Part shown: one piece after another, positions 37,143 to 50,069 of the stretch
How the letters are laid out: the number at the start of each line of letters is the position of its first letter
Numbering within the stretch: position 1 is the first letter of the stretch
DNA from: Bdellovibrio sp. 22V
GTDB lineage: Bacteria; Bdellovibrionota; Bdellovibrionia; Bdellovibrionales; Bdellovibrionaceae
Assembly: GCF_030169785.1 (NCBI RefSeq)
Contig: NZ_CP125854.1
Coordinates: 496,001 to 560,000 of the forward strand
Length of the DNA: 64,000 nt
Direction of reading: 5' to 3'
Translations under genes and position numbers: made by a program
Notes under the pieces: model-generated
Told to the model about the DNA's origin: nothing
Database searches by the model: none
Seen by the model: only the letters and a program-made list of their open reading frames with translations

Positions 37143-37163
37143 AAGGTGCTCTTAGAGCACCTT
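37143..37163. terminator. Hairpin between convergent XRE and rng genes
   Basis: AAGGTGCTC (37143-37151) pairs perfectly with GAGCACCTT (37155-37163) across a 3-nt loop. No U-run follows on either strand, so it may be a weak or processing hairpin rather than a classical terminator. Confidence 0.4.
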
Positions 37164-38013
37164 ATACAAAGAAAATCTCGTACTGTTCTAAGTGATAGTT
37201 TGGTTCGATCTTAAATGCGACAGAGCGACCGAGTTTCTTCTCGATGCTCTCAAGGCTTTCGCCTTCCACTTCATAAATCCAGTCGACGACTTCGCTGTGA
37301 CAATGAATCACGACATTGGTTTTTTTATTCGTGAGCATGTCTGCATCGCGCTCAAGTTCGCGGAAGATTTCATTCGCGACTGTGGACTTGCGTTTGATGT
37401 AGCCTTTGCCGTCACAATAAGAGCATGGTTCGCACAGAGTTTTAATAAGACTTGGGCGAATACGTTTACGAGTCATTTCGACAAGACCCAACTGGGACAT
37501 CGAAGCGATGTTCGTTCGTGCGCGGTCTTTTTGCAGCTCTTCCGCCAAAGCTTCAAGAACCTTTTCGCGATGAGATTCTTTTTCCATATCGATAAAGTCG
37601 ATAATGATGATCCCGCCGCAATTACGAATGCGCAGCTGATGAGCTGTCTCACGAACCGCTTCCAGATTGGTTTTTAAGATGGTGTCTTCCAAATCTTTTT
37701 TACCAACGAACTTACCTGTATTGACGTCGATCACAACCAGCGCTTCCGCTTCGTCAATGACGATGTAACCGCCGGACTTCAACCAAATCTTTCTTTCCAT
37801 CGAACGAGAAATTTCAATGTCGATGTCATAAAGATCGAAAAGAGGTTTTTTCTCTTCGTAAAGCACGATATTTTGTTTGTACTTGGGCATGAATTGCGAA
37901 ACGAACTTCACAACTTTCTTGTGAATCTCAACGTCATCCACCCATACACTTGTCACGTCTTCGCTCATCAAGTCGCGCAAGGCGCGCAACTCGACATCCA
38001 GCTCCGTATGCAC
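37162..38013 (-). CDS. rng: Ribonuclease E/G, 5'-truncated
   Basis: C-terminal part of an RNase G-type endoribonuclease: 283 codons with SGGYIVIDEAEALVVIDVNT (catalytic acidic motif), GGIIIIDFIDMEKESHREKV, the zinc-link cysteines in CEPCSYCDGKGY and the terminal YHLEQYEIFFV. Full RNase G is about 490 residues. The N-terminal S1 and RNase H-like segments (about 200 residues) are missing. In frame the sequence continues as P-T-P-G-N before running into a poly-A/poly-T tract at 38029-38065, so the cut lies exactly at the homopolymer. The annotated GTG start is arbitrary. Either the gene is broken or the sequence is misassembled here. Confidence 0.85.
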   Translation of the reverse strand: MHTELDVELRALRDLMSEDVTSVWVDDVEIHKKVVKFVSQFMPKYKQNIVLYEEKKPLFDLYDIDIEISRSMERKIWLKSGGYIVIDEAEALVVIDVNTGKFVGKKDLEDTILKTNLEAVRETAHQLRIRNCGGIIIIDFIDMEKESHREKVLEALAEELQKDRARTNIASMSQLGLVEMTRKRIRPSLIKTLCEPCSYCDGKGYIKRKSTVANEIFRELERDADMLTNKKTNVVIHCHSEVVDWIYEVEGESLESIEKKLGRSVAFKIEPNYHLEQYEIFFV

Positions 38014-38110
38014 ATTCCCCGGCGTGGGTTTTTTTTTTTTTTTTTTTTTTTAATTATTTTTTTTTAAAATAAACAAAAAAATGAGGGGGGAGGAGAAGAA
38101 ATTAGTCGCA
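38014..38110. other. Homopolymer junction (possible misassembly or deletion scar)
   Basis: A run of 23 T (38029-38051), then AATTA, then 9 T, then a purine-rich stretch to about 38100. It separates the truncated 5' end of rng from the truncated 3' end of the first fibre gene. Fibre homology stops at about 38104, where the paralogues continue in frame. Two genes broken at one low-complexity point suggests a joined-contig error or a real deletion. Confidence 0.7.
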
Positions 38111-40155
38111 ATCGCAGAATTCGCTGCCGCCGTTAAACGCCCTTGCGCATCCACCGTGAATGTTCCAACTTGCGTTGTTGAACCATAAGAACCCGCAGTT
38201 ACCGCCGTATTTGCTAATGAAATAGTTCCAGTAGAAGTAATCGGTCCGCCACTAAGGCCCGTGCCCGTCGCGATATTCGTAACAGTACCGCCCGCATTGC
38301 TATCCGCAGCCGGAGCCCAATTCGTTCCATCAAACTTCAATACTTGTCCTGTTGTTGGTGCTGTCGCACTCACGGGCTTCGTTTGAAGTTTTGCCACAGT
38401 TGGGTTTGGATAAGTACCGCTAAGGTCTCCACCAGCAGAGCCAGTCGGAGTTCTTGAGTCAGTAAAACGTGCATCATTACCAGCAGCCACAGTTCCTGCG
38501 GCTGTTCCCACGTTCACGGTAAGAACGGGTGTCGAAGAGCCTGTCGCAACAGAGAGATAGCTATTGGCACTACTAACATTCGTAACCGTACCACCAGAAG
38601 AAGTGTCCGTATCATTCGCACACTCCCAACGAGAGTTGGCAGTAATCCACTTCAAGACTTGGCCATCCGTACAAGCAACGTTATTAGGTTTGTAAGTGAG
38701 ATATTTCGAAGCAGCACTATTGATATCACCGTAATCCAAAGTGACAGCACCGGTTTTAGTCGCAACCGAAGTAACGGGGAATGCAATCGCTGCATTTGAA
38801 GCCGCCGTCAAACGCCCTTGCGCATCAACAGTAAATGTTCCAACTTGTGTTGTTGAACCATAAGATCCAGCCGTTACAGAAGTATTTGCTAACGAAATAG
38901 TTCCAGTGGAAGTGATAGGACCACCACTTAATCCAGTACCTGTTGCGATATTCGTAACAGTACCACCCGCATTCGAGTCATTAGCAGGAGCCCACTTCGT
39001 GCCGTCATACTTCAACACCTGACCCGAAGTTAAACCTGTCGTATCAACATCCACGCCTTTAATTTTATTAACAGACACGGCACCAATAGTTCCACTCACG
39101 TCACCTGCAACGGAAACATTGATCGCCTGACATTGGAAGGATCCCGAAACGGAATTCCAATAAGGCGTTTGGTGAGCCGCACAGTTCCCACTTCCGACGG
39201 CTGCATTAAATGCCGCCACCGTATGATAGTTACTGAGCGTCGTATTTAAATTAGTAACATCACTCATCGCAATAGCTGAACTCGCCCATTGCGAACCATC
39301 ATATTTTAAAAAATGACCTGAAGTCGGCGCCGCAGCTGAAACCGCTACACCTTGAACCTTAGCGACAGAGGGATTCGGATATGTACCGCTCAAATCTCCG
39401 CCAGCGGCTCCTGTTGGAGTGCGGGCATCACTTAAGCGTGAATCATTTCCTGCGGCAACAGTTCCAGCTCCGCTTCCGACGTTTAAGGTGAGCTGAGGAG
39501 TTGAAGTGCCATTCGCGACAGTAATATAGGCATTTGTCGAAGTGACGTTGGTGACAGTACCGCCACTGGCTCCGGAAACGGGTGAACAACCCAGCGCCGT
39601 TCCGTTCCAAGTCAAAAACTCTCCCGAAGCACACGCGGGCAATCCCGTTTTTACAAAGAAATCATTTTCAGTTTTTGTTCCCAATCTTTCGGAAGACTGG
39701 GCGAACGCAGAAAAAGGGACCGTACGAATTTCATTGGATGGAGAGATGACCTTCCACCCGCTGCCATCATGAAATTGCACTTTCAATAAACGAATGTCGC
39801 CAGAAAGAGAAGAATAAGTTGCTCCGCCGACGCAATCGTGAGTTTTTGTATTATTGAAGGCGTCTAAGAGTGAATAGAATGGATCCGCAGGGAAAAGTTT
39901 TGTGCCAGAGCCGATTGGTACGTCAAAGACCCCTTTGGAGTTCACCATGTTAATGCCGTCTTTTTGTTCACGATAGATAACACAGGTTCCGTTCGGGTTT
40001 GTGATTTCGAAAATAAAACTGACCGAGTTGTGCTCAAGAGCTTGGCCATCAGATTTTAGGATGCGTCCTTGATAAGTGAACAACGCCGGCGCAGCTTCAA
40101 CAACGAGCGCAGCGAAAAACGCGAGAAATAAAATAAGCGACGTACCAATTCTCAT
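38050..40155 (-). CDS. Fibre-like repetitive surface protein, 3'-truncated (MAT/S74-type paralogue)
   Basis: A 701-residue exported protein (signal peptide residues 1-21). It has the same N-terminal module as the next two genes ([20 protein letters not shown], then [20 protein letters not shown]). A series of beta-rich units follows: [15 protein letters not shown]-type, [20 protein letters not shown] and [20 protein letters not shown]. The paralogues continue with a tail of sugar-binding-like units and a C-terminal S74 chaperone domain. Here homology stops after AAANSAIAT and the last about 17 residues ([17 protein letters not shown]) are unrelated, at the junction near 38.1 kb. It has the TCCGATAAG motif 6 nt before the ATG. 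If the truncation is real it would lack its chaperone domain. Confidence 0.85.
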
Positions 40156-40161
40156 GTATAT

Positions 40162-40178
40162 CTTATCGGAATCTTAAC
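40162..40178 (-). promoter_or_regulatory. Motif 1 (GTTAAGATTCCGATAAG), 6 nt before fibre gene 1
   Basis: Reads GTTAAGATTCCGATAAG on the minus strand and ends 6 nt before the ATG. CCGATAA is the -10 core of sigma-28 (FliA) promoters. Identical distance and core occur at 43888, 47341 and 50053. Confidence 0.6.
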
Positions 40179-40299
40179 AACTATTTAGAAGGGCTTAAGT
40201 CCTGAATTATTCGAATGTAAGATCCTTTTAAGAAACCGTCTCAATTTGAAAGGGTTGCGAATGAATTACCAGTCTATTTTTGGTGATTTGTAACGAGGG

Positions 40300-43200
40300 T
40301 TATTTTTTGCAGAAGTCGAGATTCTTATCTTGTTTGCACAGCGCTTTTTTGATGGAAGAGATTTCTTCAACCTGTGTTTTCAATTTTTTATTTTCTTCTT
40401 TGAGAGAAGCGATCTCTCGTTTTTGCGCGACCAATTCTTTGTGAATGATTTGTGAGTCCGAAGACCATCGGTGATTCACCTCTTTAATGGCTTCAATGAT
40501 TGGAGCCACCAAGTTTTGATAGGCAACAGACTTAAATCCGTTTTTATCTGTTTTAACGACCTCAGGGAAAACCTTCTCAACATCTTGAGCGATAAGACCC
40601 ATTTGTTTTGATTGGTCTTTTTCTTTATCGATCCATTGATAAGTCACACCCTGAATGTTTGTGATTTTATCCAGGGCGTTGAGGATCGGCGTGATATCAT
40701 TCTTAAGGCGAACATCCGAAGACTGAGTCAAAGTTCCCGAAAGAGTCGCATTACCTGTCGCATATAAACTGAAATAACAAACGTTCAGCGCAAAGCACAT
40801 GGAGTCTGCACCGAGCGGAGCCGCCGTGGATGAGGACAACCATCTCCATGCCTGACCGCCGGCGGCTGTGTTGGTGTTGTAAATCATCGTATAGGCGGAC
40901 GCCGAAGAAACCGAGAGGTGTCCTCCAGGTAATGTCGTTCCGATACCGACGTAGCCGTTAGAATGAATTCTCATTCGTTCCGCGACAGTTCCCGATGCGA
41001 GAGTATTGAAGGTCAATATCGCCGACTTGGATGTCGCAAAATCCGAAGCGGCATACGACGAAATACTTCCGGCGTTCACAAATGCGGCGCCGTCGTATCC
41101 ACGGAAGGAAAGAAAGCCTAAACTATCATTTGTCAGAACAGCGGCGGGAGCTCCGGCAGAGTCGCGAGCGCGTGTCAGGATCAAAGCACCCTCGCCCGTC
41201 GAGCTGTGTTGCGATTGTATGTATACGTCGTCATCGGAACCGCCAGTCCCTTTGATATGGAGGACTCTTTCAGGATTTGTGGTCGTTGCACCAATTCCGA
41301 TTCGCCCTGGAACTTGCAGAGCTAAATCTTGAGTAGCTCTCCAGTCACCGGTTGGATTTGCGTTTCCGATGCGCACGACACCATTGGCAGGATTTGCCAC
41401 GGGACCGATACCCCAATAACCTGTACTGTTCCAATTACCGACAAACTGCGCTTGACCCAAAGTGTTGTGATAACTGCCGACGAAAATACTGTTGTAAGTG
41501 GCCTGCGCGTCCCAAGCACCGACTTGAAGAAGTGCTCCAGGGCCGCTAGAACCAATGCCGACTTTGCCATCGGCCTGAACACGCATTTTTTCATCGTTAT
41601 TAGTGTCAAAAATAATAGGTCCGTTCACTCCGTTAGAGATATAAAATTCATCGCCAGCGCCATTTGCGAATCCAAGAGTTCCCTTCCAGGTTCCGTTACG
41701 AAGGAAATCAATCGACGGAATACCCGAAGCCGGGGAGTCGAGAATCATCGGAACTTGGGTTGTCGAGCCAGAGCGAATTTTCATTTTCGCATTTGTATCT
41801 ATCGTTGTGTTCACGGCAAGATCACCAGCGGCGCTGATTGTAAGACGAGTTGTATTGTTCGTTTCAATATTCATGGCGTTTGAATCATTGGTTCCAAGAA
41901 CACCCGCGGCACCAAAAGAATTTCCTCCATTCACAAAAACAGAACTGGTCGTGAATGTTGAACAGATCATCATGCCAGTCGCATCGAACGTAACAAGCTG
42001 TCCTGTTGCGCAGTTGAAGGCTGTTATCGCGCTGCCAGTGCCATTGGAAGCTAGCAGACGATTCGCCGTCAGAGATGTCGCTCCTGTGCCACCATTCGCA
42101 ACAGGCAAAGTGCCGGTGACTTCACTCGCAAGATTGACGGAAGCGCCATTGCTAGCCGCCGTCAAACGGCCCTGTGCATCGACTGTGATATTTGCACGAG
42201 TATAGGAACCCGCAGTCACCGCTGTGTTCGCAAGAGAAATAGTTCCTGTGGAAGTAATAGGTCCACCAGTTAAGCCAGTACCTGTTGCGATATTTGTAAC
42301 CGTACCACCACTTGAAGTGTCCGTGTCATTCGCACACTCCCAACGAGAGTTGGCAGTGATCCATTTCAAAACCTGACCGTCTGTACAAGCAACATTGTTA
42401 GGTCGATAAGTAAGATATTTTGTAGCAGCGTTGTTAATGTCGCCATAGTCAAGAGTCACCGCGCCAGTTTTTGTAGCGACAGATGTAACGGGGAATGTAA
42501 TGGCGGTATTGCCCGCGGCAGTTAAGCGGCCTTGAGCATCAACAGTGAACGTACCGACTTGAGTTGCAGATCCATAAGAGCCCGCCGTCACCGCCGTATT
42601 TGCCAATGAAATAGTTCCTGTCGAAGTAATAGGACCACCACTTAAGCCAGTACCTGTTGCGATGTTTGTAATAGTACCGCCCGCATTCGAGTCATTTGCA
42701 GGAGCCCATTTTGTTCCATCGTATTTCAACACCTGGCCTGAAGCTAAACCGGTTGTATCAACATCAACACCTTTGATTTTATTTACGGAAACCGCACCAA
42801 TAGTTCCACTCACATCACCCGCAACGGAAACATTGATTGCCTGACATTGGAACGAACCCGAAACAGAATTCCAATAAGGAGTTTGGTGAGCCGCGCAGTT
42901 TCCGCTTCCGACCGCCGCATTGAAAGCAGCTACTGTGTGATAGTTGCTTAACGTCGTCGATAAGTTCGTGACGTCAGCAATCGCAATGGCCGAGCTCAAC
43001 CAATTCGTGCCATCATACTTCAAGAAATGACCTGAAGTCGGAGCGACCGCAGAAACAGCGACACCTTGAAGTTTCGCAACGGAAGGATTGGGGTAAGTTC
43101 CGCTTAAATCTCCTCCGGCAGAACCTGAAGGAGTGCGCGCGTCTGTAAAGCGTGAGTCATTACCGGCAGCGACAGTTCCCGCAACCGTACCCACATTCAC

Positions 43201-43881
43201 CGTCAATTGTGGTGTAGAGGTTCCATTAGTGACAGAGAGATATGCATTCGCAGACGAAACGTTTGTGACGGTCCCGCCGCTAGCTCCGCTGACGGCGGAA
43301 CAAGAAAGGGCTGTTCCATTCCAAGTTAAAAACTCACTGGCTCCGCACGTCGGGATCCCTGTTTTAATGACAAAATCAGAGGCCAGGTTCTCTCCCAATT
43401 TTTCAGCGGACTTTGCATATGCGGCGTACGGCACAGTACGAATTTCGTTATCAGGACTGATGACTTTCCAGCCGCTGCCATCGTGAAACTGCACGCGTAA
43501 CAAACGCGTATGTCCAACGGCGGGAGTGTACGTGCCTGCGACATTGTTATCGCCGTCAGCACAGTCGTGAACGACGCTGTTATCAAAAGCACTTAACAAA
43601 GTTTTTGTGGGTGATGATGGAAACATCTTTGTTCCCGTACCGATAGGAACGTCGAAGACACCATGACTGTTCGTCATATTGATGCCGTTCTTTTGTTCAC
43701 GGTAGATAACGCAAGATCCAGAGTTGTTGGTGATCTCAAAAAGAAAGCTGACGCTGTTGTGTTCGAGAGGTGCTCCGTCGGATTTAAGAATACGGCCTTG
43801 ATAGGTCAGTGAATTGGGCGAAGCCAATCCTACAGACGCCGACAAGAAGAGCAAAAGAGCCAAATACGTACCGTATAGCAT
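40300..43881 (-). CDS. Fibre-like surface protein with C-terminal Peptidase_S74 chaperone domain
   Basis: A 1193-residue exported protein with signal peptide (residues 1-20). The N-terminal module ([20 protein letters not shown]...EIRTVPYAAYAKSAEKLGE) is followed by beta-rich repeats with [34 protein letters not shown] and [21 protein letters not shown] second fibre section has VGIGSSGPGALLQV-type knobs. The C-terminus is a Peptidase_S74 intramolecular chaperone (SDVRLKNDITPILNALDKIT, KQMGLIAQDVEKVFPEVV) followed by a coiled coil. S74 domains trimerise phage tail spikes and cut themselves off. In Bdellovibrio, MAT-family fibre proteins display prey-binding tips, which is the likely role. Carries the shared motif before the ATG. 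Confidence 0.9.
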   Translation of the reverse strand: MLYGTYLALLLFLSASVGLASPNSLTYQGRILKSDGAPLEHNSVSFLFEITNNSGSCVIYREQKNGINMTNSHGVFDVPIGTGTKMFPSSPTKTLLSAFDNSVVHDCADGDNNVAGTYTPAVGHTRLLRVQFHDGSGWKVISPDNEIRTVPYAAYAKSAEKLGENLASDFVIKTGIPTCGASEFLTWNGTALSCSAVSGASGGTVTNVSSANAYLSVTNGTSTPQLTVNVGTVAGTVAAGNDSRFTDARTPSGSAGGDLSGTYPNPSVAKLQGVAVSAVAPTSGHFLKYDGTNWLSSAIAIADVTNLSTTLSNYHTVAAFNAAVGSGNCAAHQTPYWNSVSGSFQCQAINVSVAGDVSGTIGAVSVNKIKGVDVDTTGLASGQVLKYDGTKWAPANDSNAGGTITNIATGTGLSGGPITSTGTISLANTAVTAGSYGSATQVGTFTVDAQGRLTAAGNTAITFPVTSVATKTGAVTLDYGDINNAATKYLTYRPNNVACTDGQVLKWITANSRWECANDTDTSSGGTVTNIATGTGLTGGPITSTGTISLANTAVTAGSYTRANITVDAQGRLTAASNGASVNLASEVTGTLPVANGGTGATSLTANRLLASNGTGSAITAFNCATGQLVTFDATGMMICSTFTTSSVFVNGGNSFGAAGVLGTNDSNAMNIETNNTTRLTISAAGDLAVNTTIDTNAKMKIRSGSTTQVPMILDSPASGIPSIDFLRNGTWKGTLGFANGAGDEFYISNGVNGPIIFDTNNDEKMRVQADGKVGIGSSGPGALLQVGAWDAQATYNSIFVGSYHNTLGQAQFVGNWNSTGYWGIGPVANPANGVVRIGNANPTGDWRATQDLALQVPGRIGIGATTTNPERVLHIKGTGGSDDDVYIQSQHSSTGEGALILTRARDSAGAPAAVLTNDSLGFLSFRGYDGAAFVNAGSISSYAASDFATSKSAILTFNTLASGTVAERMRIHSNGYVGIGTTLPGGHLSVSSASAYTMIYNTNTAAGGQAWRWLSSSTAAPLGADSMCFALNVCYFSLYATGNATLSGTLTQSSDVRLKNDITPILNALDKITNIQGVTYQWIDKEKDQSKQMGLIAQDVEKVFPEVVKTDKNGFKSVAYQNLVAPIIEAIKEVNHRWSSDSQIIHKELVAQKREIASLKEENKKLKTQVEEISSIKKALCKQDKNLDFCKK

Positions 43882-43887
43882 ATTATT

Positions 43888-43904
43888 CTTATCGGAATTT
43901 TAAC
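43888..43904 (-). promoter_or_regulatory. Motif 2 (GTTAAAATTCCGATAAG), 6 nt before fibre gene 2
   Basis: Same 17-nt form as motif 1 on the minus strand, ending 6 nt before the ATG at 43879-43881. Upstream, TAATTCAG lies about 39-40 nt further in both motif 1 and motif 2. Confidence 0.6.
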
Positions 43905-43986
43905 TGTTAATAACAGAGGCGAAGGTCTGAATTACGTAGTGTTAACTACACATGTCTCGTTATGAGACGACTGTCTAAGACGTCTT

Positions 43987-46900
43987 TTATTTTTTTCGAC
44001 AGATGTTCGACTTCGGACTCATCTCGCAGATAGCAGATTTTAAGTCGTCGTTTTGCTTTTCTAGCTCTTTTAACTTCGCGTTGAGATGAGCGTTATTCTC
44101 TTTCAGAGAGGCTATTTCGCGATCTTGTTTTTTGTTTTCGCTCGTCATCAGCTGATACAACTCTTTAATGGAGTTGATGAGAGGCGCGACAAGCTTTTGA
44201 TAAGCGACGGACTTTGCGCCCTCTTTGTCAGTGCGAACGACTTCGGGATAAATTTTTTCGACTTCTTGGGCAATAAGACCGATTTGTTTTTCTGGAGCTT
44301 CAGGATTTTTCCAATAGTAAGAGACACCATTGAGACTCAGAATTTTTTCGAGGCTATGTGGAAGAGTCTCGATGTTTTTCTTCAAGCGTGCATCCGATGC
44401 TTCCGTCAGAGTTCCGCCGATCCACATATTTCCGTTGTAATCAAAATACATTTTTTGCGCACAAGCACCACCAGGACAATAGTACCACTGCGCAATGTAG
44501 CCGCTGCTATTCGCATGGTGAATTGTAAAGCCGCGTTTTGTAGCGTGATTGTTCGTGACGTTCAGTGCTGAGTCGGAACGCGAAAGCAACTCAAGATAAG
44601 AACTTCCGTCAGTGATGTATCCTGTACCGACAACATGCAGAGGATACAATGGACTTCCGGTGCCGATACCCACATGCCCTGTGTTTGTGATGCGCATCAC
44701 TTCGTTCAACGCGATAGCTGAGCCCGCTGTCACCGTTTGCGCGGCACTACTATAAAAACGGATTCCATCAATACCGCCCATAGATAAAGCGGCCCGGGTA
44801 AGACCCGCACTCGACGTGGAAGATAAAAATGAATTGGAGGCTCCCGCACCATAGACACCATAGCCGATAAGAGGTCCCCCGCTGGAGTATTCCGTACCGT
44901 ACGTAGTTAAGTGTCCTGATGAGTAAGCATCCACCAACATAAGACTTGCCGATGTCGCCGTCGCATTTCCGGCACGAACGGTTCCAATGACATGTAAAGC
45001 TTCCGCTGGAGTGTCGGTGCCTATGCCCACTTTGCCGTCAGCTTGAATACGCATTTTTTCGGTATTATTCGTATCAAAAACGATGGGTCCACTGACGCCG
45101 TTGGAAACATAGAGTTCATCGCCAGAACCGTTAGCAAAACCCAGAGTTCCTTTCCATGTGCCGTTACGAAGGAAATCAATAGACGGAATCCCCGATGCGG
45201 GAGTATCCAAACTCAAAGGAGCTTGTGTTGCTGATCCCGCACGAATTTTAAGTTTCGCGTTGGTATCGACCGTCGTATTGATCGCAAGATCTCCCGCCGC
45301 ACTGATAGACAGACGGATCGTGTTGTTTGTTTCAATGTTCATCGGATTTGCGTCATTCGTACCCAAAATCCCTGCGGCGCCGAATGAATTTCCGCCGTTC
45401 AAGAAAACCGATCCGTTCACAAATGAAGTACAAGTCATCATTCCTGTCGCATCAAAGGTCAGAAGCTGTCCCGTTGTACAGTTAAATGTCGTGACGGCCG
45501 AGCCTGTGCCATTCGAGGCAAGAATTCGATTTGCAGTGAGTGAGGTCGCGCCTGTACCGCCATTCGCAATCGGCAGAGTTCCCGTGACTTCCGTGGCAAG
45601 ATTCACTGCGGCTCCATTAGAAGCAGCAATCAAACGACCTTGAGCATCGACCGTGATATTTGCGCGAGTGTAAGACCCTGCAGTGACCGCTGTATTCGCA
45701 AGTGAAATAGTTCCCGTTGAAGTAATTGGCCCCCCTGTAAGACCGATTCCTGTTGCGATATTCGTCACGGTACCACCAGAGGAAGTATCTGTGTCGTTCG
45801 CACATTCCCAGCGCGAGTTGGCCGTGATCCACTTCAAAACTTGGCCATCCGTACAAGCCACATTATTAGGTTTGTACGTAAGATATTTAGAAGCGGCACT
45901 ATTGATGTCACCATAATCTAATGTGACAGCACCGGTTTTAGTTGCAACAGACGTTACTGGAAAAGCGATCGCTGCATTTGAAGCCGCCGTCAAGCGCCCT
46001 TGAGCATCAACAGTAAATGTTCCAACTTGCGTTGTTGATCCATAGGAGCCAGCAGTAACAGAAGTGTTTGCAAGAGAAATAGTTCCAGTGGAAGTGATAG
46101 GGCCACCACTTAATCCAGTACCTGTGGCGATATTCGTAACAGTGCCACCCGCATTCGAGTCATTAGCGGGAGCCCACTTCGTGCCGTCATACTTCAACAC
46201 CTGACCCGAAGTTAAACCTGTCGTATCAACATCCACGCCTTTAATTTTATTCACAGACACGGCGCCAATAGTTCCACTCACATCACCAGCGACGGAAACA
46301 TTGATTGCCTGACATTGGAATGAACCCGAAACGGAATTCCAATAAGGAGTTTGGTGAGCCGCACAGTTCCCACTTCCCACGGCTGCATTGAAAGCGGCCG
46401 TTGTATGATAAGTCGCAAGAGTTGCACTTAAATTCGTAACGTCGGAAATAGCAATAGCGGAGCCTATCCACTGCGCTCCATCGAATTTAAAGAACTGTCC
46501 ATTACTGGGAGCCGCGTTCGCGACGGCCACGTTTTGAATTTTTGCAACGGAAGGATTGGGATAAGTGCCGCTTAAATCACCACCCGCAGCGCCATTCGGA
46601 GGACGGGCATCTGACAAGCGAGGATCATTACCTGCGGCAACGGTATTAGCGGTTGTGCCGACATTCAAAGTGATTTGCGGAGTCGAACTGCCATTTGCAA
46701 TCGTAACATAAGCATTCGCGGACGTGACGTTTGTGACGGTTCCTCCGCTCGCTCCCGAAACGGGTGCACAAGTCAGATTCGTGCCATCAAATGAAAGAAA
46801 TTCGCTGGCACTACAAGTCGGCACTCCCGTCTTTAAAACAAAATCGGAAGCTTGTTTGTCGCCCAAGGTCTCAGCGGAAAGAGCGTAAGCAGAAAAAGGC

Positions 46901-47334
46901 ACAGAACGAATTTCATTGGAGGGGGAAATCACTTTCCAGCCTGATCCGTCATGAAACTGCACTTTGAGTAAACGAGTGTCGCCGGAAGCGGCATTGTAGG
47001 TGGAGCCTCCTGAACACGAATGAAGAACAGAGTTTTTAAATGCGTCGACAAGTTTGAAAGTGGGTGCCGTCGGGAAAAGTTTTGTACCTGAGCCAATGGG
47101 AACGTCAAAGATCCCTTTGGAATTGATCATGTTCACATCATCGACTTGCTCACGATAAATGACGCAAGTACCGGTTGGATTCGTAATCTCAAAAAGGAAA
47201 CTGACGTGCCCGTATTCAAGCGCGGTCCCATCTGATTTTAAAATACGGCCCTGATAAGTCAGCGAATTCGGTGAGCCTGATGCCACCGACGATATGAGAA
47301 GAAAAATGAGAGCCAGATACGTGCAGTTCCTCAT
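43987..47334 (-). CDS. Fibre-like surface protein with C-terminal Peptidase_S74 chaperone domain (paralogue 3)
   Basis: A 1115-residue exported protein (signal peptide residues 1-20). N-terminal module and beta-repeats are close to the other two paralogues, with runs of near-identical DNA (for example around 45900-46400 compared with 38700-39200). It then diverges in the middle third, where it carries different knob-like units (SSGGPLIGYGVYGAGASNSF). Its S74 domain is SDARLKKNIETLPHSLEKIL and KQIGLIAQEVEKIYPEVVRT, then a coiled coil. Divergent tips on shared stems suit prey-recognition fibres with variable adhesins. This role is an inference from Bdellovibrio MAT proteins. Shared motif before the ATG. 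Confidence 0.9.
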   Translation of the reverse strand: MRNCTYLALIFLLISSVASGSPNSLTYQGRILKSDGTALEYGHVSFLFEITNPTGTCVIYREQVDDVNMINSKGIFDVPIGSGTKLFPTAPTFKLVDAFKNSVLHSCSGGSTYNAASGDTRLLKVQFHDGSGWKVISPSNEIRSVPFSAYALSAETLGDKQASDFVLKTGVPTCSASEFLSFDGTNLTCAPVSGASGGTVTNVTSANAYVTIANGSSTPQITLNVGTTANTVAAGNDPRLSDARPPNGAAGGDLSGTYPNPSVAKIQNVAVANAAPSNGQFFKFDGAQWIGSAIAISDVTNLSATLATYHTTAAFNAAVGSGNCAAHQTPYWNSVSGSFQCQAINVSVAGDVSGTIGAVSVNKIKGVDVDTTGLTSGQVLKYDGTKWAPANDSNAGGTVTNIATGTGLSGGPITSTGTISLANTSVTAGSYGSTTQVGTFTVDAQGRLTAASNAAIAFPVTSVATKTGAVTLDYGDINSAASKYLTYKPNNVACTDGQVLKWITANSRWECANDTDTSSGGTVTNIATGIGLTGGPITSTGTISLANTAVTAGSYTRANITVDAQGRLIAASNGAAVNLATEVTGTLPIANGGTGATSLTANRILASNGTGSAVTTFNCTTGQLLTFDATGMMTCTSFVNGSVFLNGGNSFGAAGILGTNDANPMNIETNNTIRLSISAAGDLAINTTVDTNAKLKIRAGSATQAPLSLDTPASGIPSIDFLRNGTWKGTLGFANGSGDELYVSNGVSGPIVFDTNNTEKMRIQADGKVGIGTDTPAEALHVIGTVRAGNATATSASLMLVDAYSSGHLTTYGTEYSSGGPLIGYGVYGAGASNSFLSSTSSAGLTRAALSMGGIDGIRFYSSAAQTVTAGSAIALNEVMRITNTGHVGIGTGSPLYPLHVVGTGYITDGSSYLELLSRSDSALNVTNNHATKRGFTIHHANSSGYIAQWYYCPGGACAQKMYFDYNGNMWIGGTLTEASDARLKKNIETLPHSLEKILSLNGVSYYWKNPEAPEKQIGLIAQEVEKIYPEVVRTDKEGAKSVAYQKLVAPLINSIKELYQLMTSENKKQDREIASLKENNAHLNAKLKELEKQNDDLKSAICEMSPKSNICRKK

Positions 47335-47340
47335 GGGTTT

Positions 47341-47357
47341 CTTATCGGATTTTTAAC
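47341..47357 (-). promoter_or_regulatory. Motif 3 (GTTAAAAATCCGATAAG), 6 nt before fibre gene 3
   Basis: Same motif and same 6-nt spacing to the ATG at 47332-47334. Confidence 0.6.
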
Positions 47358-47436
47358 AGGAAGTTATAAGAGTCCAACGTCCAAATTGCGATGGCTTAAT
47401 TGGCCATCGTCTCAGATTGCGACACGCAGTTAAGGA

Positions 47437-50046
47437 CTAATCTGAGAGGTTATATACATTCGATATAACTAACGGCAGAACGGGAACGCTATCGAAAGTC
47501 GTGTCGTATTCATATTCAAGATGCTGAACTGCCGGTAAGAAAAAGTCGGCGATGACGATACCTTTGAACTGTCCATAATAACGGCTATGAATAATCGGTG
47601 CGTTGAGAAGCAGACGTTTAAAGTTCACAGTTTTTCTTCCGGTCTCTTGCGCCCACTCCAAGATGCAAGGAATGGAATTCGTCGTTGCCAAAGTCGTATC
47701 GGTTGTACAGTTAGAGCGAATCGCATTGTACGTAGCTTCTTGCCCCGGAATTGCGGCCCAGCCGGTTCCTGCGGCAATGAGGGCGGCCTGATCCGCCGTT
47801 GAGGCTGTCTGATTTTGTAAAATTCCGACGGGAGTTTTCGTGGCGATAGCGCCACCGGAATATGTCGTATAAGAAGCCCTCATGATAGGACCTGAATCAT
47901 TTGTGAGATCAGGTATGCGGGCAGCATCATTAAGAACGGCGGAAATATTTCCCGATGCCGAAGCGTCATCAGGATAATTTTTCGAAGGAACCTTCGGCCA
48001 CACTGTGGAGCTAAAGCGTTCGAACATATAGTTAGGATTGAATCCTACGATGACGGCCCTTGCACTTGTGATTTGCAGATTGACCTTCGAATACGTCGCT
48101 TCATTTAAATAATTCACGGCATCGCGAATGAAGACGGCTCCGGTGACATGCAGACGGCATCCCATGGCTCGCGAGTTCAATTGCAAGTTATCCAAGAAAA
48201 GAGCTCCTTGAATGACAATATCACCCCAACATTCGACAGTGCCGCTGTTGCGCACATACCTCTGACCGCCAACACCGGAAACGATATTCAGATTGGTGAG
48301 AGTCGCCGTCGATTTTTTATAAATGGAAACGCCGGAATCACTCGCTACTAAAGTCATCGAGGCCGTTAACGCGTTTATTTGCGCCACCGTCGGCGCGGAA
48401 ATCAACACATTGTTTTTCGTAATCGCCGTACCAAACAAACCTGGAGCCGCATCCGTCGGTGCGACACCGATGTAGTTGGCAAGTCTTACTAAGACGGCGC
48501 GGGCCGTGCTGTACATTTGTTTTGTCACGACGTCGAGCAAGGTCCATCCGCCTCCGGGAATAGCATTACCGGTGCTGGGATCTGCGAGCGCATTCACATA
48601 ATCTGTCAGAACGACAGAAGCATTCTTTGTATAAAGATTCCCCGTTATTTGCACGCCGTCGCGCCAGTCCTCATAATAAATACCGGCTTCATAAGGACGG
48701 ATTTGCACTCCAACGGTGGGCGCTTCGTGTCCTAGGAAATAAGATTGTCCATGACCGAAATCGGTGACGATATCGCCTTTGACCTTCGCATGGCACATGG
48801 CGCAGGCGACTCCACGCACCGCTAAAGCGGGACGAGCACCGCTCAATGCAAAAACCGGAGGATCCGCAATTAGATTCACGGTTTCAGAGTCCGAGTGATT
48901 TAAAGTATCCGTTTGGGTCACGGTGAAAGTTTGCGCTTCGCCCTCTTGCGTGAAGTTCACAACAGCGCTCCACGTTCCGTTGCTTTGACAGGTTACTGTT
49001 TGTGCCGCCTCCGCAATCGTGCCGCCTAAAGTGATCGTGTCGCCAACCGTACAACTTCCAGAAACGGAAAGACCCACAGGATCTATCGTGCTGTTGTTTG
49101 TCGGTGAGGCAATCGTGATAACAGGCGCCGTCGTATCTTTCACAACGTCGTGTGAAAGCGTTCCGATGTTTCCGACATCGTCGAGTTGTTGAAGCGAAAG
49201 ATTTTTTCCGCCATCGGCTCCCGTTGGTTGCAAGGTTCCCGTGAACGATCCCGCGACACAGGCAAGAATCACCGGGCTGTTATCAATTCCGCCAGTAATG
49301 GCAACACTGTTGCCGTTGTCTTCACAAGATCCGTTGATCGTAAAAGAAGATTCCACCGCTTCATTCAACGCGGGCGAGGTCACCGTCACGACCGGTGCGG
49401 TGAGATCAATCTCAAGAACCGCACTTTGGTTCGCCGAAGTTTGCCAGTTTCCGGCATTGTCTTTCAAAAGAGTGCAGAGGTAATAATTGTTTTCAGAAGA
49501 GACATTCAATGTTACGGCTTCTTCGACGTCTTTTTCCGGTTGGGCTTGCAAGACCGCTAATTGACCCGCGCAAGGTGTGTTGCTTAAAAGATATTTGTAA
49601 GACACGACCGAAGAATCGGCCGGATCAATATTTACCGTGCGATCACTGATGTCATTCGATGCTCCTCCACTCCATCCCTGTAAAGAAGGAGCGGACGCCG
49701 GTGGAGTCACATCGTACAAAACCGCTACTTGATTTCGTTCAAGACGATCGATTTTTTTATCGTATTCAACATAGATAGTTTTAAGACCTTCATCACCCGA
49801 AAGCTGTACCGTGGTCGCGTATTTATCATTCTCGCACGGAACGATTTCGTCGATGCTTCCATCTTCGCTGTATATATGGACGTCGAAACCGCTTTTACAG
49901 GATCCTTTGAGAGGAGTCGGGCCGTTTGAAATTTGCAGATCTGTGGCCACTTGAATGTCAGGAGCGGAAAGGGATGCGCCAATATCGGCAGCCAAATGGC
50001 AACCCATAAGAGACAGCAATACCAAAACGTTCCATAAGTGCTTCAT
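47437..50046 (-). CDS. Large lipoprotein with Ig-like repeats and a CxxCH haem motif
   Basis: An 869-residue protein with a lipoprotein signal (LSLMGCHLA, Cys16). Residues about 30-400 hold several Ig/cadherin-like beta units with conserved APVVTVTSPALNEAV and APVITIASPTNNSTI starts. A single haem-binding motif CAMCHAKV follows at about 415-420. The C-terminal 400 residues are beta-rich, with CWGDIVIQGALFLDN and LHVTGAVFIRDAV resembling a bactofilin or beta-helix pattern. A long Ig-like stalk with one c-type haem is unusual. It lies directly upstream of the fibre genes and carries the same TCCGATAAG motif, so it probably belongs to the same surface system. Confidence 0.8.
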   Translation of the reverse strand: MKHLWNVLVLLSLMGCHLAADIGASLSAPDIQVATDLQISNGPTPLKGSCKSGFDVHIYSEDGSIDEIVPCENDKYATTVQLSGDEGLKTIYVEYDKKIDRLERNQVAVLYDVTPPASAPSLQGWSGGASNDISDRTVNIDPADSSVVSYKYLLSNTPCAGQLAVLQAQPEKDVEEAVTLNVSSENNYYLCTLLKDNAGNWQTSANQSAVLEIDLTAPVVTVTSPALNEAVESSFTINGSCEDNGNSVAITGGIDNSPVILACVAGSFTGTLQPTGADGGKNLSLQQLDDVGNIGTLSHDVVKDTTAPVITIASPTNNSTIDPVGLSVSGSCTVGDTITLGGTIAEAAQTVTCQSNGTWSAVVNFTQEGEAQTFTVTQTDTLNHSDSETVNLIADPPVFALSGARPALAVRGVACAMCHAKVKGDIVTDFGHGQSYFLGHEAPTVGVQIRPYEAGIYYEDWRDGVQITGNLYTKNASVVLTDYVNALADPSTGNAIPGGGWTLLDVVTKQMYSTARAVLVRLANYIGVAPTDAAPGLFGTAITKNNVLISAPTVAQINALTASMTLVASDSGVSIYKKSTATLTNLNIVSGVGGQRYVRNSGTVECWGDIVIQGALFLDNLQLNSRAMGCRLHVTGAVFIRDAVNYLNEATYSKVNLQITSARAVIVGFNPNYMFERFSSTVWPKVPSKNYPDDASASGNISAVLNDAARIPDLTNDSGPIMRASYTTYSGGAIATKTPVGILQNQTASTADQAALIAAGTGWAAIPGQEATYNAIRSNCTTDTTLATTNSIPCILEWAQETGRKTVNFKRLLLNAPIIHSRYYGQFKGIVIADFFLPAVQHLEYEYDTTFDSVPVLPLVISNVYNLSD

Positions 50047-50052
50047 GGAACA

Positions 50053-50069
50053 CTTATCGGAAAGCCAAC
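50053..50069 (-). promoter_or_regulatory. Motif 4 (GTTGGCTTTCCGATAAG), 6 nt before the lipoprotein gene
   Basis: Same TCCGATAAG core with GTT at the same distance and the same 6-nt gap to the ATG at 50044-50046, but the bases between differ from the three fibre genes. Confidence 0.55.

Follow-up and report, generated by a model that had tools for sequence, protein, structure and literature searches.

A FliA-type −10 box next to the start codon and an in-gene GNACGT element in fibre and lipoprotein genes of Bdellovibrio

Four consecutive genes on the minus strand of the window, the 64,000-nucleotide stretch of Bdellovibrio DNA analysed here, carry the box CCGATAA exactly 7 nt before ATG and the word GNACGT just inside the coding region. 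The sequences themselves show the box, its spacing, the element, its conservation and its independence of frame; that FliA is used, where exactly transcription of these genes starts and what GNACGT does are inferred, in an explanation that we consider likely as a whole. TCCGATAAG would be the −10 element of a FliA (sigma-28) promoter, placed so that transcription begins at the A of ATG, and the fibre and lipoprotein mRNAs would hence be leaderless and have no Shine-Dalgarno sequence. Their synthesis would fall in the FliA-driven attack phase, so that the cell would bear prey-binding fibres on meeting prey. Fibre promoters would additionally have a weak −35 and a family-specific GTTAA, and a nucleotide-level GNACGT, with G rare at N, would mark the fibre genes and some surface lipoproteins. 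This element most probably works at the mRNA level, where its candidate partner would be a small RNA or an RNA-binding protein that controls initiation or decay.

Results

Three MAT fibre paralogues and an Ig-like-domain protein

The genes are listed below with their predicted products; gene starts used throughout are predictions.

38050..40155, minus strand: gene 1, MAT fibre paralogue, 701 aa, S74 domain not detected (alignment to the 43987–47334 protein)
40300..43881, minus strand: gene 2, MAT fibre, 1193 aa, S74 chaperone domain at the C-terminus (PF13884, 1.6e-18)
43987..47334, minus strand: gene 3, MAT fibre, 1115 aa, S74 chaperone domain at the C-terminus (PF13884, 2.6e-18)
47437..50046, minus strand: gene 4, exported Ig-like-domain protein, probable lipoprotein with lipobox-like LSLMGC, 869 aa

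Genes 1–3 are close paralogues, with 80–82% identity across their common N-terminal part. Genes 2 and 3 both combine the S74 domain, similarity to PDB fibre tips and the N-terminal part found throughout the MAT family: the gene 2 protein matches the fibre-tip entries 8ol4, 8oml and 8ojn, and the gene 3 protein matches 8ond (bd2133), a solved Bdellovibrio fibre tip. A Pfam search with the gene 1 protein gave no match; its residues 11–527 align at 82% identity to the protein of gene 3. For the gene 4 protein, Pfam gave weak Big_6/Big_7 matches only, under the gathering score, and it is absent among the fibre matches listed, the N-terminal MAT part not being found in it. Judged by its sequence, gene 4 is unrelated to the fibres and is not a MAT fibre. 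Since genes 1–3 are paralogous and gene 4 is unrelated, the four promoters count as about two independent instances. The MAT (mosaic adhesive trimeric) family has been shown to recognise or bind prey (PMC10769870), and the proposal in the initial annotation that these genes form a co-regulated surface set for prey contact is supported by their identity, three of the four encoding fibres of that family. Positions 37162–38013 on the minus strand of the window hold an RNase E/G ORF of 283 aa with a profile match only from position 87, the N-terminal part apparently missing.

A fixed distance between the box and ATG

The box occurs once before each gene.

40163..40169, minus strand: FliA-type −10 box CCGATAA of gene 1, 7 nt before ATG
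43889..43895, minus strand: FliA-type −10 box CCGATAA of gene 2, 7 nt before ATG
47342..47348, minus strand: FliA-type −10 box CCGATAA of gene 3, 7 nt before ATG
50054..50060, minus strand: FliA-type −10 box CCGATAA of gene 4, 7 nt before ATG

The arrangement TCCGATAAG-N6-ATG, described earlier for all four genes, was confirmed, and each ATG opens a long ORF. Exactly four copies of TCCGATAAG are present in the window, all on the minus strand (40162–40170, 43888–43896, 47341–47349 and 50053–50061), against 0.48 expected, and 0 of 100 shuffles get to four. Pattern searches were genome-wide, and 369 background genes came from a 400-kb spread sample of the genome. In its own genome (one contig, 3,601,631 bases) the 9-mer TCCGATAAG has 45 copies and its reverse has 9, and TCCGATAAG-N6-ATG is found 9 times against once for the reversed pattern. 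A contig scan gave one useful relative. Among relatives, the distance from TCCGATAAG to ATG forms a single sharp peak, with 33 cases at N6, while the remaining distances between 0 and 30 average 3.4 each, and CCGATAA-N7-ATG gives 568 matches versus 55 for the reversed control (summed over 24 genus genomes). Instead of lying at random distances from start codons, the motif therefore has a genus-wide fixed spacing, as the initial annotation had claimed for these four genes.

The starts of 76 fibre genes, selected for similarity of their proteins with the motif disregarded, were also compared: nearly all have a CCGATAA-like box, mostly at exactly 7 nt, and column statistics give the box and ATG with little else upstream. 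A looser box (6 of 7 matches) proved unusable in the genome sample, where chance matches dominate. Outside the fibre family, 23 of 27 genes with a box match have a hydrophobic N-terminus, compared with 157 of 369 sample genes, and these 23 encode lipoproteins, membrane or secreted proteins. The expectation that genome-wide matches would be surface proteins was thus borne out in that most non-fibre matches are exported, but not all are; an ABC ATPase is a clear exception, and a few others are also cytoplasmic. These matches bear on the idea that the motif was merely inherited with duplicated fibre genes, its spacing having no function. Three of the four genes are indeed paralogues with further upstream and coding sequence in common. 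Inheritance is nevertheless very improbable: the same spacing before non-fibre genes already contradicts it, the genus-wide peak is sharp, and fibre family members that differ in upstream sequence retain only the box and its spacing.

Predicted transcription start at the A of ATG

In B. bacteriovorus HD100, the attack-phase consensus TTAAG-N16-CCGATA is found in 92 of 140 promoters and has been attributed to FliA (PMC3627812). The assignment of CCGATAA as a FliA −10 element in the initial annotation is well supported, since the box is exact in all four genes and equals this published consensus. FliA control has been shown experimentally for another surface system, the TAD/Flp pili (PMC5430801). 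For the position of the start site, we compared three HD100 sRNAs having both a published FliA promoter and a published start (PMC3627812). APsRNA6 starts 7 nt after CCGAAAA and APsRNA7 starts 7 nt after CCGTAAA; the start of APsRNA3 is 11 nt after CCGAAGA, 4 nt later than the 7-nt rule. The genome used here as HD100 (G006) was identified as such in part by a c-di-GMP-I riboswitch lying where the same paper places merRNA. In all four genes of the window, the base 7 nt after CCGATAA is the A of ATG. Because two of the three sRNA starts obey this distance, the four mRNAs are probably leaderless, with a start predicted at the A of ATG. Leaderless candidates in HD100 include those at 1072420, 3181743, 3186519 and 1279251.

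Translation signals point the same way. A Shine-Dalgarno-like sequence precedes only 1 of the 76 fibre genes of the genus, and ATG is the start codon in all of them except one; GTG starts are common in genus g13. A Shine-Dalgarno-like sequence is often present where the box lies 25–40 nt from the start codon, which fits a single promoter type used both with and without a leader. No excess of sigma-70-like promoters emerged from a scan for such sites. The leaderless or almost leaderless FliA transcripts first suggested for these genes are well supported by the consensus, the fixed spacing in the genus, the sRNA starts and the rarity of Shine-Dalgarno sequences. Sigma-28 use and a start at ATG are strongly indicated, and attack-phase timing of these four genes moderately so.

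A weak −35 and a family-specific GTTAA

A −35 box had been described as not evident at the normal distance. This stands for each single gene, TTAAG at N16 being weak in all four (1–3 of 5 matches per gene), but not for the family, in which it is enriched: 54 non-redundant fibre promoters peak at N16 with a mean of 2.52 matches versus 1.49 expected. Non-fibre leaderless sites have a mean of 2.67 matches to TTAAG at N16, and canonical −35 boxes lie upstream of some leaderless sites. A second TTAAG peak in fibre promoters, at N3, corresponds to the GTTAA of the initial annotation, whose placement of GTT at an identical offset in all four genes and of GTTAA in three was also correct.

40174..40178, minus strand: GTTAA element of gene 1
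43900..43904, minus strand: GTTAA element of gene 2
47353..47357, minus strand: GTTAA element of gene 3

Of 9 fibre sites 6 contain GTTAA, and of 27 non-fibre leaderless sites none does, which makes it a feature of fibre promoters rather than of leaderless sites as such.

To our knowledge, TCCGATAAG has no complementarity to the anti-Shine-Dalgarno sequence, which counts against the reading that it is no promoter element but an atypical ribosome site that serves translation from within a longer leader. We think that reading quite improbable. Its fixed distance from ATG does resemble Shine-Dalgarno spacing, but the box matches the mapped FliA −10 (PMC3627812), and both the canonical −35 boxes upstream of some leaderless sites and the Shine-Dalgarno-like sequences that accompany distant boxes argue for a promoter element.

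GNACGT inside the fibre genes

A short start-proximal word overlooked in the initial annotation, GNACGT, appears to be an undescribed regulatory site.

40140..40145, minus strand: GNACGT as GTACGT in gene 1, ORF position +11 to +16
43866..43871, minus strand: GNACGT as GTACGT in gene 2
47319..47324, minus strand: GNACGT as GCACGT in gene 3
50027..50032, minus strand: GNACGT as GAACGT in gene 4, in a reading frame different from that of the fibre genes

GNACGT lies within the first 45 nt in 69 of 76 fibre genes, with frames divided 58/7/4, and ACGT is the most enriched 4-mer at fibre starts without prior choice. After removal of redundancy it is found in 59 of 66 fibre genes (background 3.3%) versus 1–4 of 66 in each window nearby. 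Since fibre paralogues have a common ancestry, counts for main-frame members are not independent and p-values computed for the genus family assume too much independence, a problem that is smaller for non-fibre genes and for other genera. Of the one-letter variants, almost all are rare or missing, and N is A in 24, T in 17, C in 16 and G in 2 cases (n = 59). The predicted unpaired state at the element is unremarkable (0.55 vs 0.51). A protein constraint on the signal peptide (Gly/Cys-Thr) might be suspected from the 58 of 69 fibre instances in a single frame, but it is scarcely credible as the cause. The encoded residues differ by frame (GT, VR and YV/NV), all 49 Thr codons in the main frame are ACG versus 32% in sample genes, the wobble base before this codon varies, and one-letter variants are rare or missing. 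Use of three frames, the ACG-only Thr codon and the variable preceding wobble base together argue for selection on nucleotides.

The element and the promoter occur in combination well beyond this locus. The box followed by N7, ATG and GNACGT within 25 nt gives 110 matches versus 1 in the control (summed over 24 genomes), and boxes at other distances (8–38 nt) with GNACGT give 146 matches over 31 distances, about 5 each (also summed). In HD100 the combined rule has 11 exact matches, namely seven fibres and four lipoproteins; in the genome of the window, gene 4 and a second lipoprotein are among the matches, as are a membrane protein with a PilZ domain and an exported Cys-rich protein. Across these two genomes GNACGT is present in 8 of 53 non-fibre genes versus about 1 expected. 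Lipoproteins with GNACGT include non-homologous ones. As a general start signal it was rejected, being found in 18 of 369 other sample genes. The gene for the PilZ-domain protein (1536720, L204) has a leaderless FliA box with GNACGT, and similar starts occur in several genus genomes. Lipoproteins of the set often have C-S-[LI]-x-A-x-L after the lipobox Cys, for example CSLDANLEDL or CSLEAQLDDF (HD100 L215 and L217–L219; L199 and L200 in the genome of the window; L099 and L101), and may be one family or have a common sorting signal.

In other genera of the order, 68 fibre starts were picked without using GNACGT, and 24 of them contain it (background 3.3%; frames 11/4/9). Box-led fibre genes have it in 13 of 36 cases and Shine-Dalgarno-led ones in 6 of 16, box counts here being upper estimates, since the start-codon rule favours a box or a Shine-Dalgarno sequence. 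GNACGT was absent from the fibre starts of g33 (in f6) and of one g13 species. Spacing from box to start in these two is often 6 instead of 7 (loci L284–L288 and L292–L294), which hints at a shifted start site.

The main alternative to an RNA-level role is that GNACGT is a DNA operator, bound by a transcription regulator just downstream of the start site. In leaderless genes the element falls roughly between +3 and +25 relative to the predicted start of transcription, as is typical for a repressor; ACGT is palindromic, and non-homologous genes have the element in common. We nonetheless regard an operator as rather unlikely. GNACGT still adjoins the start codon in Shine-Dalgarno-led genes (6 of 16) and leadered FliA genes, and its position varies without helical phasing. 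Because it stays beside the start codon in leaderless and Shine-Dalgarno-led genes alike, its position is tied to the start codon rather than to the promoter, and this favours action in the mRNA.

Several candidate partners at the RNA level were considered. A search of attack-phase sRNAs for the complement of GNACGT gave no consistent ACGTNC site. GGAACGUAU resembles what we take to be the complement of a conserved 16S rRNA stretch; pairing with 16S rRNA was rejected, as G is nearly absent at N despite a possible wobble pair and other leaderless genes have no such element. A CsrA site was rejected too, the GGA core that is invariant in such sites being dispensable here (G at N in only 2 of 59). 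CsrA/RsmA GGA sites (PMC4894983) resemble GNACGT in being short and start-proximal in many mRNAs of one regulon, but the invariant part of GNACGT is ACGT.

Discussion

In bacterial leaderless genes, a Shine-Dalgarno sequence is usually missing and the promoter box keeps a constant, short spacing to the start codon. Compared with such genes (PMC3160421), the box described here is of the sigma-28 type and marks mainly surface proteins. The HD100 FliA regulon (PMC3627812, PMC5430801) is alike in its −10 CCGATA(A) and the surface genes among its targets; its −35 TTAAG at N16 has a counterpart here in the enrichment across the fibre family. Here, in contrast, the promoter abuts the start codon, the −35 is weak in single genes, and fibre genes add GTTAA and GNACGT. 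The word "leaderless" is absent from the main text of PMC3627812, and a literature search for a study of leaderless genes in Bdellovibrio found none. With the MAT family (PMC10769870) our fibres share the common N-terminal part, S74 chaperone tips and similarity to solved HD100 fibre tips, but the gene-start architecture is new relative to that paper, whose main text makes no mention of promoters or FliA.

Through the leaderless messages proposed here, the set of fibres with which Bdellovibrio recognises prey would be linked to the sigma factor of the attack phase, and the rule CCGATAA-N7-ATG plus GNACGT can be used to list prey-contact candidates in any related genome. We found no description in the literature of a regulator reading GNACGT. 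We suggest tentatively that, near the start codon, it could be the target of a dedicated order-wide post-transcriptional regulator of fibres and partner lipoproteins in predatory bacteria, acting independently of promoter class. The element points to a candidate regulator and is amenable to testing by synonymous changes.

Two further observations were made. A stretch resembling the middle of a MAT fibre, at 34% identity, is present on contig JAUSMW010000267.1 (L056), a MAG contig binned as Saccharibacteria. APsRNA5, an abundant attack-phase ncRNA (PMC3627812; HD100 605441–605617, minus strand, L214), contains a Shine-Dalgarno sequence and a 29-codon ORF, MAKKHVVRKEYIWNREIRELALLTETGPP. The ORF is kept in the genome of the window (1412389) as MAKSNVARHELILSQEIRELTLHPETGPP, with a CCGATAAG box upstream, and APsRNA5 is probably an mRNA for a microprotein.
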